From a virus: a DNA stretch of 20,681 bases. Made by a program: the position numbers and the translations under genes. Positions 12,938 through 18,884 of this stretch are shown in pieces; position 1 is the stretch's first letter; every line of letters begins with the position of its first letter. Under the pieces are notes generated by a model. The model saw only the letters and a list, made by a program, of their open reading frames with translations, searched no databases and was not told where the DNA came from. Location: IMG/VR virus record IMGVR_UViG_3300035162_003568, positions 1 through 20,681 of that record. The stretch is one strand, 5' to 3'.

Positions 12938-12942
12938 TTTTC

Positions 12943-12950
12943 GATAAATA
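12943..12950 (+). promoter_or_regulatory. Candidate late promoter before the 933-residue gene
   Basis: GATAAATA lies 22 bases before ATG 12972, between the stop of the 233-residue gene and the AGGGA ribosome site at 12959-12963. It is one of five similar boxes at nearly constant distance from structural-gene starts. Confidence 0.5.
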
Positions 12951-12971: not shown

Positions 12972-15773
12972 ATGGCAAACTTTTGGACAAACAATAACGG
13001 AGACAGCTTAGGTACCTTGCAAGAGCAAGTTACTATTGCCCCGTTACAACTACCGCTATCACAAGCAAGTGCTACGGTTGCATTAATTAGTGGCAAATTA
13101 CCTGCAGGGTTAAGGTTATCTAATAATACTATTGTAGGTACTCCGGTAGAAGTTGCAAACGAAACAGTTAGTACATTTGTACTTAGAGCAACATATGATT
13201 CACAAATAAGCGACAGGGCTATTAAAATAACAGTCCAGGGTGCAGATGACCCTGTATGGGTTACAGAAGCAGGATTATTAAAAGCAGGTAACGGCGATAC
13301 TTATTATATACTAGATAGCGCACCTGTTGACTTCCAATTACAAGTTACTGATAGCGACACTAATGCAGGACAGATACTAGAATTTTTTATTCCAAGCAAT
13401 GGTGGAACCCTTCCACCGGGAATACAGTTAACAAGTGATGGCAGACTAGTTGGTGTAGTTGATCCTATTTTAGCAATACAAAAATCTGTAGGTGGTGGAC
13501 AATATGATGACGCAGGCTTTGACGCAGGCACTACTTCAGCATACGACTTTAGTGTACCAAGTGCTAACGGCTACGACAGCTTTTATTACGACACAACAAT
13601 TTACGGCCTAAATACTCCGACTCGCTCTCCTAAAAAACTAAATCGGTTTTACGAGTTTGTAGTTAGTGTAAATGACGGCGATTCAATTTCAAGTAGAACT
13701 TTTAAATTATATGTTGTTGGTGATGACTTCTTTAGATCAGATACAACTGTTATGCAAGTTGGCACTGGAATCTTTAGTGCAGACAACACACACATCAGAG
13801 TACCAATTTGGTTAACTCCAAGAGACTTTGGTTACAGGCGAGCAGACAATTATGTTACGCTAGTACTTGATGTAATTGACCCTAACACATTAGCCGGAGT
13901 AGTTAGTTATTACAAGACAGCAGCCAATGATGATGGAAGTAACAGTATACTTCCTCCAGGATTAACCCTAGACACTACCACAGGAGAGATTGCAGGTAGA
14001 GTTCCATATCAGCCAGCAATAACACGAGAATATAAATTTACTGTTGCTGCAAAGCGCATCGGGTATGATATTGATACCGTACAATTAATAGAATATATGT
14101 ACGAAGGTGCAAATATTGGTATAGCACAGCTTAAAGTAAGTAAGTTTGACAAATATTCAGCTTATGTTATTGGTAAGGAATTTACAGTTGCAGGCGAAAC
14201 ATATTCTGTTACTAGTATTAATACAAGTAATGTATTATATGATGTTCTAACATTAAACAGAGCTGTTGTTTCTATCTTTACTAAGGGCATTAGTATTAAC
14301 TTTGGTACTATTGCTATTACTGAATTAGAAGAAGCGGTCAGTAAAAAGACATTTGTTATAAAACTATTGGGTGAAGTAGATTCAACTATTGCGTATACTA
14401 CACCTAGTAACTTAGGATCGTTTAATGCAAACTATATTAGTACTCTTTCTGTTGTTGCAACAACAACTGTTCCGGCAGCTATATTACTTTATAATGTAAC
14501 AGCAGGCACGTTGCCGCCAGGGATAACATTATCGTTATCCGGAGAACTAATTGGTAAAGTAAGAAGCTTTGGCACAGAATCAAATCCTGGACTTACTGTA
14601 TTTGACAATCAACAAATGCAGTTAGACGGAAATACTACTTCACTTGATCGTACATATAAGTTTACTATTAAAGCGCAGGATCAATTTGGATTTAGTGCAA
14701 TCGAAAAACAGTTCAGCATTAAGTTAGCTGATCCTGATAATAAACAATATAGTAATGTGTTTATGCGACCGTTGTTGCCAACCGCCCAACGTACTTCATT
14801 TATTAACTTTGTAAATGATGCAGAAATATTCCTTCCAGAATATCTATATAGACCAGACGATGTTAACTTTGGTGTACAAACTAAGATTAACATTCTTGCT
14901 TATGCAGGTATCGAAGCAAAAACATTAGACTACTTTGTGGCCGCGGCGGCTAAGAATCATAAAAGACGTAATCTTACAATTGGTAAAGTGAAAACAGCAG
15001 TTGCACTGGCACCTGGTACAAAAAATACAGTATACGAAGTTGTATACTTAGAAGTTATTGATCCGCAACAGTCTACTAAGAAAAATAAAAAAGTTGCTAA
15101 ACAAATTCAAATTAAGAATACCGAAAAAGTAACAGTTGACAGTGCAAGATTTCAAACCGAAGCTGCAAGTTATTATACTTTGGATGACTTATACAACAGT
15201 CAATTTGCTGAAGTTAGTGTTTCTACCAGACAAGCAGGCGATATTAGAGTCCAATGGATTGATATGTTTCCTATAACTAGTAGAGCAGGCGTACTTAATC
15301 TTCCTGCTACAAGTTCATTAGAAATAATTAGCCGTGATGGCACTTCTTTGAATATACCATTTACACCGGGAATTATTGAAAGCAATAAACTTAGATCAAA
15401 CCCAACAAATGTTCTTACAGTTGATAGTAATGCTATAACAGTTGACGGAACAAATGATACAACACGATATATATCTAACTTAACACATATGAGAGATAAT
15501 ATAAAAGCAATAGGCGAAACTGAAAAGAACTTTTTACCGTTATGGATGAGATCTTCACAGGCAGACACTGTAACTGAATTAGGATTTGTTAACGCTATTC
15601 CGTTATGTTACTGCAAGCCTGGCACAGCAAAAATAATTGCAAACACTATTGATTTTAATGGAATTGACTTTAAACAATATGAATTAGATGTTGATAGATA
15701 TGTTATTGATAATTCAGAAGGCGTTTCAGAAGAACAGTATGTTGTATTCGCAAATTACGAATTTAACACTTAA
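12972..15773 (+). CDS. Large virion structural protein with Ig-like (He_PIG-type) repeats (933 residues)
   Basis: The start is ATG 12972 with AGGGA at 12959-12963; the stop is TAA 15771-15773. Four copies of the motif L-P-x-G-[IL]-x-L-x-x-x-G-x-[IL]-x-G are visible: SGKLPAGLRLSNNTIVGTP (40-58), GTLPPGIQLTSDGRLVG (145-161), ILPPGLTLDTTTGEIAG (~326-342) and GTLPPGITLSLSGELIG (~513-529). These are hallmarks of the putative-Ig (He_PIG) fold used as spacers in surface and virion proteins. After ~600 the sequence changes: FLPEYLYRPDDVNFGVQTK is followed by a region with KNHKRRN and a Lys-rich stretch (~700), a block I associate with structural proteins of marine T4-like phages. No catalytic motif is seen. 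It is likely part of the tail or baseplate adhesion apparatus; its exact position is not known from the sequence. Confidence 0.85.
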   Translation: MANFWTNNNGDSLGTLQEQVTIAPLQLPLSQASATVALISGKLPAGLRLSNNTIVGTPVEVANETVSTFVLRATYDSQISDRAIKITVQGADDPVWVTEAGLLKAGNGDTYYILDSAPVDFQLQVTDSDTNAGQILEFFIPSNGGTLPPGIQLTSDGRLVGVVDPILAIQKSVGGGQYDDAGFDAGTTSAYDFSVPSANGYDSFYYDTTIYGLNTPTRSPKKLNRFYEFVVSVNDGDSISSRTFKLYVVGDDFFRSDTTVMQVGTGIFSADNTHIRVPIWLTPRDFGYRRADNYVTLVLDVIDPNTLAGVVSYYKTAANDDGSNSILPPGLTLDTTTGEIAGRVPYQPAITREYKFTVAAKRIGYDIDTVQLIEYMYEGANIGIAQLKVSKFDKYSAYVIGKEFTVAGETYSVTSINTSNVLYDVLTLNRAVVSIFTKGISINFGTIAITELEEAVSKKTFVIKLLGEVDSTIAYTTPSNLGSFNANYISTLSVVATTTVPAAILLYNVTAGTLPPGITLSLSGELIGKVRSFGTESNPGLTVFDNQQMQLDGNTTSLDRTYKFTIKAQDQFGFSAIEKQFSIKLADPDNKQYSNVFMRPLLPTAQRTSFINFVNDAEIFLPEYLYRPDDVNFGVQTKINILAYAGIEAKTLDYFVAAAAKNHKRRNLTIGKVKTAVALAPGTKNTVYEVVYLEVIDPQQSTKKNKKVAKQIQIKNTEKVTVDSARFQTEAASYYTLDDLYNSQFAEVSVSTRQAGDIRVQWIDMFPITSRAGVLNLPATSSLEIISRDGTSLNIPFTPGIIESNKLRSNPTNVLTVDSNAITVDGTNDTTRYISNLTHMRDNIKAIGETEKNFLPLWMRSSQADTVTELGFVNAIPLCYCKPGTAKIIANTIDFNGIDFKQYELDVDRYVIDNSEGVSEEQYVVFANYEFNT

Positions 15774-16370: not shown

Positions 16371-16606
16371 TGTTTAATCCGCTAGTTGATAGTTTTGCAG
16401 ACCTAAGTGACGCTGAAGTAGAAAATAAATCTATTGAACTTCAGCGTAAATACTTCATGACGCATAATCCTCAAGTACAAGAACAAATTGCTGCGATACT
16501 AGACATGTATCAACAAGAAAATAGCTCAAGACGGGCAAAGCAATATCAAAAACAACAAGAACAAAATGGCGAAAAAGGACTTGACAGTTTAATAAATATA
16601 AGTTAA
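16370..16606 (+). CDS. Small Gln/Glu-rich helical protein of unknown function (78 residues)
   Basis: ATG 16370 overlaps the previous stop by one base and has no clear ribosome site, so translation is probably coupled to the 187-residue gene. The sequence begins MFNPLVDSFADLSDAEVENK and continues as a polar, Gln- and Glu-rich helix (QVQEQIAAILDMYQQ; KQYQKQQEQNGEK) ending LDSLINIS. It is likely a helical or coiled protein. I do not recognise a function. Its place at the end of the structural module suggests a virion or assembly role, which is inference. Confidence 0.75.
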   Translation: MFNPLVDSFADLSDAEVENKSIELQRKYFMTHNPQVQEQIAAILDMYQQENSSRRAKQYQKQQEQNGEKGLDSLINIS

Positions 16607-16611
16607 ACTGT
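16584..16611 (+). promoter_or_regulatory. Perfect 9-bp inverted repeat with a late-promoter-like box in its loop
   Basis: ACAGTTTAA (16584-16592) and TTAAACTGT (16603-16611) are exact inverted copies around a 10-base loop. The box AATAAATA (16591-16598) spans the 5' arm and loop, 17 bases before ATG 16616. TTGACA at 16581-16586 with TAAACT 17 bases later (16604-16609) is also a weak sigma70 candidate. The right arm contains the stop codon of the 78-residue gene. It could be an operator, a weak hairpin or a promoter; no T-tract follows, so it is not a typical intrinsic terminator. Confidence 0.5.
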
Positions 16612-16615
16612 ATAC

Positions 16616-17137
16616 ATGCTTATAAAAACAGACGAACTCGGTATTCCACGATTTACAAATAAAGACCTAGTTGACATGATCTATACTGGTCACGTCGACA
16701 AGTGTCATGTTGTATTGTGTGATCCAAGTGATAATGTAGACAAGTTTAATGCAGCAATGCGAAAACAATACCTGCCTGAGCTTAAACAATATATTCCATT
16801 AGATGTAGATCAAAAAGACTTTGATAATGCACTACAGTCTGAATGGTTCATGCCTGATGAATATAAAGAGCTTGATGTAGTACGTTTTTTAAACAATAGA
16901 GAACTTACTCACACACAAAGAGACCGTGTTCGAGAAGAACTACATGAATTTACTGAGCGTGGTATGTTACCACTATTACGTTATATGTGCTATCTTGTAG
17001 ATTTTATGCGTGAAAATAACATTGTTTGGGGTGTAGGACGTGGTAGTAGTGTAGCAAGTTATGTGCTATACTTAATAGGTGTACATAAAATTGATTCAAT
17101 CCAGTATGACCTGGACTGGACCGAGTTCCTGAGATAA
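16616..17137 (+). CDS. Truncated C-family DNA polymerase III alpha-like protein (173 residues)
   Basis: ATG 16616 is the only in-frame start after an upstream stop (16604) and has no Shine-Dalgarno sequence. Residues ~105-173 follow the DnaE/PolC pattern before the active site: a helical RVREELHEFTERGMLPLLRY, then FMRENNIVWGVGRGSSVASY, then LIGVHKIDSIQYDLDWTEFL. This aligns with bacterial alpha subunits (…VGPGRGSGAGSLVAYAL… D-P-L-x-[FY]-x-L-x-F-E-R-F-L). The GRGSS loop contacts the incoming nucleotide in that family. The protein ends just where the catalytic P-D-[FI]-D-x-D motif should begin, so it cannot polymerise alone. The first 100 residues (LIKTDELGIPRFTNKDLVDM …) are not a recognisable PHP domain. 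It may be a nucleotide- or DNA-binding accessory or a decoy subunit; the role is unknown. Confidence 0.75.
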   Translation: MLIKTDELGIPRFTNKDLVDMIYTGHVDKCHVVLCDPSDNVDKFNAAMRKQYLPELKQYIPLDVDQKDFDNALQSEWFMPDEYKELDVVRFLNNRELTHTQRDRVREELHEFTERGMLPLLRYMCYLVDFMRENNIVWGVGRGSSVASYVLYLIGVHKIDSIQYDLDWTEFLR

Positions 17138-17480: not shown

Positions 17481-17903
17481 ATGGCGTTAAACTTAAACAC
17501 AATCAAAGGTACACCGAGAGCAGTAGGCGATCGAACACTTGTAACAGATATGTTTTTTGGAGAACAAAAAACAGCAGGCGGTCTTATCATTAAAGATGAC
17601 GATGGCACTACACGAGGAATTTATCCGCGTTGGGCCAAAGTTTATTCTAAAGGTCCACAGAATAAAGAAGTGTTTGAAGTCGGACACTGGATTCTTGTAG
17701 AACACGGTCGATGGACTCGTGCAATGACCATAGATACTCCAGAAGGAGAAATTGAAGTTCGTATGGTAGAAACTGATAGTATATTTGGCTACTCAGAAGA
17801 GAAACCAAATGATATCTATATTGGTGCGGAATATACAGACGGCCAACATGCTACCGTTGATCCAAGTGCATTTGTAAATTCATCAGGAGCATTAGCACAG
17901 TGA
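17481..17903 (+). CDS. 31: gp31-like GroES-type co-chaperonin for capsid protein folding
   Basis: ATG 17481 follows AAAAAGG at 17464-17470. The GroES-fold signature is clear: TPRAVGDRTLVTDMFFGE, the mobile-loop region QKTAGGLIIKDDDGTTRGIY, then the beta-barrel core RWAKVYSKGPQNKEVFEVGH and WILVEHGRWTRAM. This is the pattern of T4-type gp31, which replaces host GroES on GroEL so that the large capsid protein can fold inside an enlarged cage. T4 gp31 is 111 residues; this one is 140, with extra acidic C-terminal sequence (TDSIFGYSEEKPNDIYIG and beyond). No GroEL is encoded here, so the host chaperonin is used. The stop TGA (17901-17903) overlaps the next start. Confidence 0.88.
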   Translation: MALNLNTIKGTPRAVGDRTLVTDMFFGEQKTAGGLIIKDDDGTTRGIYPRWAKVYSKGPQNKEVFEVGHWILVEHGRWTRAMTIDTPEGEIEVRMVETDSIFGYSEEKPNDIYIGAEYTDGQHATVDPSAFVNSSGALAQ

Positions 17904-18277
17904 CCAATACATTCAAGGACATTGACACATTTGCTACAGCATGTGATCAACCGCCTAGTGAAGCAAACTACGAGATGTATCTTGATCTAATAGATGAGGA
18001 GTATATTGAACTTCAAAAAGCACTTAGAACACATGACAAAGTAGAACAACTAGATGCCCTAGTTGATATCTTAGTTGTTACTATGGGAGCAATCCGTGCA
18101 GCAGGTTGGGACGGAGAAGCGGCTTGGAAAGAAGTGATGAACACTAACTTTGCAAAGATTGACCCAGACACAGGCAAAGTAATTAAACGTGAAGACGGCA
18201 AGGTACTAAAGCCGGAAGGCTGGAAGGCTCCTGAGCTTTCACAGTTTGTATTAACTACTGGCTTACTCGACAAATAA
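17900..18277 (+). CDS. MazG-like / phosphoribosyl-ATP-type nucleotide pyrophosphohydrolase
   Basis: GTG 17900 overlaps the gp31 stop as GTGA and has AGGAG at 17885-17889, so it is translationally coupled. The all-alpha NTP-PPase core is visible: the metal-binding E-E-x-x-E as Glu33, Glu34 and Glu37 in LIDEEYIELQKAL, and the second acidic helix with Asp52 and Asp56 in LDALVDILVVTMGAIRAAG. It ends with a family-typical tail (NFAKIDPDTGKVIKREDGKV, then LKPEGWKAPEL). These enzymes cut NTPs or dNTPs to the monophosphate plus pyrophosphate. In marine phages MazG has been discussed as a modulator of host nucleotide or alarmone pools, though its true substrate remains debated. The family call is strong; the substrate is not determined from the sequence. 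Confidence 0.87.
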   Translation: MTNTFKDIDTFATACDQPPSEANYEMYLDLIDEEYIELQKALRTHDKVEQLDALVDILVVTMGAIRAAGWDGEAAWKEVMNTNFAKIDPDTGKVIKREDGKVLKPEGWKAPELSQFVLTTGLLDK

Positions 18278-18289
18278 AGTAAAAACTAC

Positions 18290-18318
18290 TTGACTCCTTA
18301 GTTACTGTATGCTATAAT
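18290..18318 (+). promoter_or_regulatory. Near-consensus sigma70 promoter with extended -10
   Basis: The -35 is TTGACT (18290-18295), the spacer is exactly 17 bases, and the -10 is a perfect TATAAT (18313-18318) preceded by TGC, an extended -10. A second TATAAT lies at 18323-18328. Initiation would be near 18325, about 23 bases before the exonuclease start. It resembles a strong early promoter read by host RNA polymerase and is the best bacterial-type promoter in the window. Confidence 0.85.
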
Positions 18319-18349
18319 AGTGTATAATGTAATTAAGGAGTTTTCTTTT
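18293..18349 (+). promoter_or_regulatory. Hairpin that covers the exonuclease ribosome site, followed by a T-tract
   Basis: ACTCCTTAGTTAC (18293-18305) can pair with GTAATTAAGGAGT (18329-18341): 13 pairs, 12 Watson-Crick and one G-U, around a 23-base loop. The right arm contains the whole Shine-Dalgarno AAGGAG (18335-18340). The left arm overlaps the -35 element, so it is present only in read-through RNA and absent from RNA that starts at this promoter. TTTTCTTTT (18341-18349) follows, so a weak intrinsic terminator is also possible. Confidence 0.6.
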
Positions 18350-18884
18350 GGCAACACACGGCACAATTGACTTAGAAACTATTGATACTAGTCCGTCAGC
18401 AACTGTCCTATCACTAGGTGCAGTTAAATTTAATCCGCTGAACGATAGCGAACCACACTCTGAGTTGTATCTTAAAATTAATATTGATGAACAAGATACA
18501 CTAGGACGTACTGCAAGTGACAGCACTATTGAATGGTGGGGCAAACAAGATCCAAAGATCATGGAAGAAGCCTTTGACCAAACTGGTGCTGTTAGCGTAG
18601 ATGAAGCTCTACGTCAAATTAGCAAGTGGGTCGTTGGTATTGATACATTATGGGGACAAGGATATGGTTTTGACTATACCATACTAGAAGACATGTTCCG
18701 CCGCGCTGCAAAGCCGATTCCGTGGAACTTTTGGATTATACGGGATTCTAGGACCCTTTTTGGATGTTGTGAAAGCGATCCACGTAAAGGAATGCAAAGC
18801 AATTTACACAATGCATTAGCCGATGCATATTTTCAATCAAAAGCAATTCAAATTGCTTACAACCAGTTAGGACTTAAACGATGA
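18348..18884 (+). CDS. dexA: DexA-like 3'-5' exonuclease (DEDDh / RNase T fold)
   Basis: The start is TTG 18348, with AAGGAG at 18335-18340 and a 7-base spacer; 178 residues. All five DEDDh residues are visible: Asp8 and Glu10 in TIDLET (Exo I), Asp109 in GYGFDYTIL (Exo II), and His154 and Asp159 in LHNALADAYFQ (Exo III). The block DSTIEWWGKQDP is close to the T4 DexA segment around its STIEWW motif. T4 DexA is 227 residues, so this is a shorter version lacking part of the C-terminus. It would remove nucleotides from 3' ends of DNA, probably helping host DNA breakdown or nucleotide salvage. A strong promoter lies directly upstream, unlike its neighbours, and its stop overlaps the next start (ATGA). 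Confidence 0.88.
   Translation: MATHGTIDLETIDTSPSATVLSLGAVKFNPLNDSEPHSELYLKINIDEQDTLGRTASDSTIEWWGKQDPKIMEEAFDQTGAVSVDEALRQISKWVVGIDTLWGQGYGFDYTILEDMFRRAAKPIPWNFWIIRDSRTLFGCCESDPRKGMQSNLHNALADAYFQSKAIQIAYNQLGLKR

Follow-up and report, generated by a model that had tools for sequence, protein, structure and literature searches.

A host-type promoter, a ribosome-site-masking hairpin and a T-run share some 60 bases at a gene junction of T4-like phages and probably insulate the next gene

In a 20.7 kb fragment from the virus record of an uncultured T4-like phage (20,681 nucleotides, hereafter the window), the 70 bases between the stop of mazG (18277) and the start of a DexA-like exonuclease gene (18348) hold a promoter, a hairpin, the ribosome site AAGGAG and a T-run. 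We consider it likely, at a probability of roughly 70%, that this element is an insulated junction promoter, at which incoming RNA is terminated or translationally silenced and the element's own sigma70 RNA is left free. This reading draws on the anatomy of the element, its folding in silico, the covariation of its arms, the conservation of its promoter, the T-run bias and its position among the genes. RNA arriving from upstream, produced by late structural and mazG transcription, would carry both arms of the hairpin. The hairpin and its U-run would end part of this RNA, and whatever reads through would leave the next gene silent with its ribosome site paired. Transcripts from the internal promoter would lack the 5' arm and be freely translated.

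Starting from the large tail genes at its left, the window encodes a 78-aa ORF, a DNA polymerase III alpha-like ORF, a 102-aa ORF, a gp31-like protein (PHROG 931) and mazG, followed by the element, the DexA-like exonuclease, a small ORF, a gp44-like clamp loader and a ferredoxin. The exonuclease domain matches PF16473 (E 8e-34) and PHROG 255, the motifs IDLET, GFD and HNALAD are visible in it, and its nearest solved chains are those of an 'Exodeoxyribonuclease' (8kel/8ken). Judged by its sequence, the protein is an RNase H-like 3'-5' exonuclease with the DEDDh residues of the DexA-like class. The features of the window that matter here are as follows.

12942..12950 (+): T4-late-like motif CGATAAATA, 29 nt upstream of a 933-aa ORF at 12972; a possible origin of late read-through RNA
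16581..16609 (+): sigma70-type promoter TTGACA-17-TAAACT, followed at 16616 by the DNA polymerase III alpha-like ORF; a possible origin of read-through RNA reaching the element
17900..18277 (+): MazG-type pyrophosphohydrolase, its stop codon 14 nt upstream of the stem
18290..18295 (+): -35 hexamer TTGACT, whose GACT doubles as the foot of the hairpin 5' arm
18292..18305 (+): 5' arm of the lower helix, masking the ribosome site in read-through RNA according to folding and covariation
18306..18326 (+): apical helix and loop, 18306-18314 pairing with 18318-18326
18310..18318 (+): extended -10 TGC-TATAAT, at the hairpin apex and spaced 17 bases from the -35
18324..18326 (+): predicted transcription start, placed by the position of the -10; RNA from there would lack the 5' arm
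18329..18342 (+): 3' arm of the lower helix, including the Shine-Dalgarno sequence (SD)
18335..18340 (+): SD AAGGAG, 7 nt upstream of the start codon
18341..18349 (+): T-tract TTTTCTTTT, immediately 3' of the stem and terminator-like
18348..18884 (+): DexA-like 3'-5' exonuclease, 178 aa, TTG start; PF16473, PHROG 255

Read from 18290, the DNA is TTGACT CCTTAGTTACTGTATGC TATAAT AGTGTATAATGTAATTAAGGAGTTTTCTTTTG. The host-type promoter proposed by the first-pass annotation was borne out as TTGACT-17-TATAAT, which relatives conserve. It scores 11/12, carries a TG ahead of the -10 and is among the best four in the window. Conservation carries the case, as promoter-like matches occur there at near their chance count (67 found, 60.8 expected). 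The 13-pair stem of the same annotation (18293-18305 with 18329-18341, 12 Watson-Crick pairs and one G-U) is present as claimed, but the description was incomplete, the actual structure having 14 pairs and a further apical helix of nine. The T-tract TTTTCTTTT is shared as well, its 5' bases helping to close the stem and its 3' bases belonging to the TTG start. The position of the -10 supports a start point between the arms, also proposed at first pass, and RNA begun near 18325 is predicted to have an open leader of 23 bases.

The minimum-energy fold is a 51-base hairpin (18292-18342, -23.5 kcal/mol) whose stability none of 200 dinucleotide shuffles reached (z -4.96 over 76 nt, -6.95 over 58 nt). 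When long and short RNA were folded separately, as had been suggested, the hairpin formed in the long RNA and the site was open without the 5' arm; RNA from 18325 or 18321 contained no such hairpin and was weakly structured (z about +1). In the read-through RNA of the window, AAGGAG lies within the 3' arm and is paired with a probability of about 1.0, in agreement with the masking anatomy first described, and opening the ribosome site costs ~14 kcal/mol with the 5' arm as opposed to ~3 without it. The 15.5 kcal/mol needed at the exonuclease SD was matched by only one start among the 362 with an SD that six related contigs provided (median 3.3), and the exonuclease start ranks 2 of 363 for SD masking. 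One might suspect a chance or compositional palindrome in an AT-rich leader around AAGGAG, given the near-chance rate of promoter-like matches in the AT-rich window. Such an origin is scarcely conceivable in view of the shuffle scores (z -5 to -7), the rank for SD masking and the covariation presented below, which already refutes it.

As relatives we used 80 loci encoding the exonuclease at 72-99% identity. The promoter is found at the corresponding place in all 80, its -35 and -10 nearly always 17 bases apart. The exonuclease directly follows the element in 39 loci; in 37 an ORF of ~54 aa lies between the two and has its own SD in the stem, L020 has a different ORF there, and L018, L024 and L031 have a tRNA-Arg after the element. 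The intervening ORF of 54-56 aa (GIGTTGATGIALMILHITGYLTGWAWPLLYV; e.g. L017:5828-5995) is membrane-like, gave no PHROG match, and has elements 209-227 bases before the exonuclease. The loci yielded 49 distinct elements, defined by an SD near the promoter. Read-through RNA masks the SD of all of these except L077 and L079/L080, at pairing probabilities of 0.7-1.0. Across the 49, opening the region from SD to start costs a median of 13.8 kcal/mol in the read-through form and 2.3 in the element's own RNA.

Covarying stems in related phages had been named at first pass as a test of the idea, and they were found, the arms changing in a compensatory way. Arm sequences are highly divergent, each accompanied by its complement (CTCCTTAGTTAC, CTCCTTGCAGTTTAT, CTCCTATCAGTTTATGCG, CTTCTTCAACTTTATAC, CTCCTCTTGTGC). 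On alignment A1, where the rows of L037 and L040 are off by one column in the 3' arm so that counts come out lower rather than higher, 92.3% of the cells of the 13-pair helix are paired. Counted with kin sequences treated as independent, which overstates significance, double changes in this helix number 83 against 30.9 +/- 3.8 after shuffling, and an independent covariation count gave 279 against 174 +/- 10.5; the covariation score, compared with slid controls that retain relatedness, was 0.427 against at most 0.134, about three times that of any slid version. The number of A1 pairs with a change on both sides was not above the shuffle, unlike the cell count and the score.

G-U pairs in the stem outnumber A-C mismatches by 45 to 10, which argues for selection on the RNA of the + strand rather than on a DNA palindrome. 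An inverted repeat centred on the -10 and spanning the -35 to the start region does occupy the typical position of an operator, and a repressor or activator site over the promoter, or else a cruciform, would be the corresponding DNA-level explanation. We regard it as very improbable, because arms that vary freely with pairing kept leave no fixed binding sequence, the excess of G-U over A-C is not expected from DNA symmetry, and bulges are tolerated.

The promoter itself appears fitted to the stem. TTGACT forms the -35 of 46 of the 47 masked elements but of only 11 of 63 other promoters of the same phages, the remaining 52 having TTGACA. The final T of TTGACT pairs with the A of GGAG, and this pairing would explain why these promoters depart from TTGACA. 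The hexamer is TTGACA in the maskless L018, L024, L077 and L079; L081 is masked despite TTGACA because its stem is shifted. As far as sequences can tell, the promoter of fixed spacing, the compensatory arms, the G-U excess and the TTGACT bias indicate that the element is under selection.

Its T-run appears to have been selected too. The spacer between SD and start is 77% T and 12% A in the elements; for 237 other genes on these contigs the figures are 26% and 52%, and TTTT occurs in 73% of elements versus 3.4% of those genes. The element is thus also terminator-shaped, with a stable stem followed immediately by a T-run, and the early suspicion that the T-tract could add termination gains support from both the spacer bias and this arrangement. 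A terminator score of the d'Aubenton-Carafa type exceeds 0 in the window and in only 27 of the 49 elements. Several lineages, however, keep the SD-masking stem without a T-run (L040, L046/L073, L055, L058, L060 and L081). Masking therefore seems the more constant function, and termination is probably a second selected one.

These observations also bear on the view that the element is a plain intrinsic terminator of the upstream unit, overlapping the next promoter and SD for compactness, with SD masking a by-product of no regulatory weight. A T-run directly after the stem, strongly enriched over other genes and accompanying every strong hairpin class, including those before mazG and the 78-aa ORF, is what such a terminator would display. 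It would not account for the lineages that retain the masking stem without a T-run, for an SD that is always inside the 3' arm, or for a -35 bent to pair with it; and L018 and L024, in which a tRNA comes first, have no hairpin although upstream RNA would still need terminating there. On balance we find this explanation unlikely.

The mask is not indispensable, as two lineages have lost it: L077 and L079/L080 keep the promoter and ribosome site and show no visible compensation. Where a tRNA follows, L018 and L024 keep the promoter and lack the mask, and L031 keeps a 14-pair hairpin with no SD there to mask. These cases suggest that the element can be dispensable in some lineages or have another use. 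The idea, taken from L018, that read-through RNA misfolds the next tRNA failed in L024. The stem of L031 would suit a hairpin serving RNA stabilisation or processing (an RNase III site, protection of the upstream mRNA 3' end, or 5' protection) with silencing secondary; the constant location of the SD within the 3' arm and the missing stem in L018 and L024 speak against that role, to which we give little credence. In 24 of 52 relatives the upstream stop codon lies less than 12 nt from the stem, close enough for ribosomes terminating there to interfere with the hairpin foot, and coupling is possible.

The element that we read as an insulated promoter is not specific to the exonuclease, contrary to the first-pass annotation: the mask covers the ribosome site of the 54-aa ORF in 37 of 80 loci, and in other phages the element is found ahead of mazG or a 78-aa ORF. 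Nor could the weak TTG start be upheld as part of the device, since several relatives use ATG. A strict DNA pattern of the element occurs in at least 120 stretches of the viral collection. Among 119 examined, the next gene is the exonuclease in 43, the 54-aa ORF in 27, a cyanophage-type mazG in 19 and the 78-aa ORF in 5; these four classes have long stems (some bulged) and a T-run throughout, whereas most remaining matches lack both. In three classes the element comes after late structural genes: large structural genes precede it in L160 (mazG class) as well as in L119 (78-aa class), the latter having the gene order of the window without mazG or the exonuclease and the element one step earlier, directly after the tail genes. 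The same design before varied genes indicates that the element belongs to the junction, not to one gene.

Downstream of this junction lie genes of replication and nucleotide metabolism (clamp loader, dihydrofolate reductase, thymidylate synthase). The immediate upstream neighbour varies and may be mazG or, in names assigned by reading sequences, an SGNH-like hydrolase, a BAX-inhibitor-like membrane protein, a QueC-like protein or a HAD-like protein. This upstream site is a gene-turnover hot spot, occupied by at least five unrelated genes in the relatives (e.g. L002:5207-5932, L074:5254-5934, L041:5272-5928). L032 and L033 have a second near-perfect palindrome (TTGACTCCTTGTTGATT...AACTTAACAAGGAGTCAAG) ~243 bases before the exonuclease; it reads as a promoter on both strands and has no gene right after it.

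In bacterial genomes the strict pattern with TTTT occurred at 4 places in 257 Gb, of which L246 and perhaps L247 have the same shape before a gene. A near cultured relative of the phage was not found in the collection, where the exonuclease shares at best about 35-38% identity with cultured phages. In the annotated cultured cyanophages that we fetched there is no room for the element, since mazG abuts, overlaps or nearly touches the preceding gene. Rfam gave no match above threshold, the only sub-threshold one being a snoRNA on the opposite strand.

Two promoter signatures precede genes in these phages, CTTGACA..TATAAT and the T4-late-like CGATAAATAC. Near genes, the 20 kb ahead of the element in six long contigs yielded 14 late motifs as against 5 sigma70-type promoters, and stretches farther off on both sides are richer in sigma70 promoters. 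With its own RNA open and incoming RNA ended or silent, the first gene after the element would be expressed only from the host-type promoter, presumably early. As the upstream block appears to be late, the most natural use of the element would be to stop late transcription from expressing the first gene of an early unit. The promoter at 16581 may, as a counterpoint, make some incoming RNA early. This promoter is conserved, and it lies so near the ATG of the DNA polymerase III alpha-like ORF (16616) that its RNA would be nearly leaderless. The earlier picture of a switch confining the exonuclease to one time window thus stands in part: a position after ~20 kb poor in sigma70 promoters and marked by late motifs fits the silencing of late read-through, while the timing had been stated with too much confidence.

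Candidate masks at late motifs are seen elsewhere in these phages. Five contigs encode a conserved membrane-like protein of ~91-120 aa (MWEMIERMASDRLWIYTAIAGS...) whose gene is closely preceded by a late motif (ATAAATAC) and, like T4 gene e, has its start codon within a stem (L113:7020(-), L099:14498(-), L092:5153(+), L103:7733(-), L110:10207(+); minus-strand positions here and below are counted from the locus end). To judge from its sequence the gene is a candidate for late masking, holin-like by eye. At further masked starts the stem shares bases with either a sigma70 promoter or a late motif; these are L115:3033(-), L114:18776(+), L093:18582(+), L085:11179(-), L101:3522(-) and L106:4443(-). 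A late-like motif accompanies 14 of the 30 most masked starts and 73 of 432 overall.

A broader proposition can be advanced only tentatively: that these are instances of a widespread, unnamed and compact junction element of tailed phages, its 50-60 bases serving at once as sigma70 promoter, intrinsic terminator and SD mask. Such an element would sit at the late-to-early border, work whatever gene follows and have been adopted before several unrelated genes. In the same phages it would be found alongside late-promoter masks resembling that of T4 gene e, the two being mirror-image devices that silence both kinds of read-through. The element points to strong, testable selection against upstream RNA expressing an early phage gene, met by an overlapping solution within 60 bases. 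Its sequence signature may flag late/early borders in unannotated contigs, and it offers a ready design for a read-through-proof promoter.

Several known systems invite comparison. The transposases of IS10 and IS50 are subject to fold-back control of read-through RNA, and there, as here, a sigma70-type promoter yields RNA free of the hairpin by which the ribosome site is masked in transcripts from outside promoters. The IS10/IS50 leader, however, lies in transposon ends and guards against activation by the insertion site, whereas a phage gene of replication or nucleotide metabolism is concerned here; the genes downstream of our elements are the exonuclease, the 54-aa ORF, mazG and the 78-aa ORF, with neither a transposase nor an end repeat. 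Intrinsic terminators can act as insulators, for example near one end of Tn916, where a hairpin and T-run likewise shield downstream genes from incoming transcription (PMC11658703). In the phage element, by contrast, the two arms have second roles, the 3' arm serving as the ribosome site and the 5' arm as the promoter.

The closest likeness is to T4 genes e, soc, 49 and I-TevI, whose ribosome-binding sites are sequestered in transcripts initiated upstream and freed in RNA from internal late promoters; in gene e the same geometry, with a late promoter, silences about 100-fold (PMC3014915). As in these genes, the ribosome site is paired in read-through RNA and the promoter lies inside the 5' strand of the stem, which the element's own RNA would lack; pairing of the SD or start codon in upstream-initiated RNA, the mark of the gene e type, is found here in silico and through covariation. 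The reversed direction noted at first pass is supported: the T4 genes use a T4-late internal promoter and silence early read-through, whereas here the promoter is of the sigma70 type, and late or upstream read-through should be silenced. It reads TTGACT-17-TATAAT, instead of the T4-type late promoter (TATAAATA) or the phages' own late motif CGATAAATA. Unlike the T4 leaders, the element also has an added terminator-like T-run and occupies a module junction before varying genes. Our literature search for a described sigma70 version of such a masking leader returned only the T4 review (PMC3014915). The element would work like the leader of T4 gene e yet fails to carry the late promoter that defines that family, and it would extend the masking logic of T4 late genes to host-type promoters and to uncultured phages.
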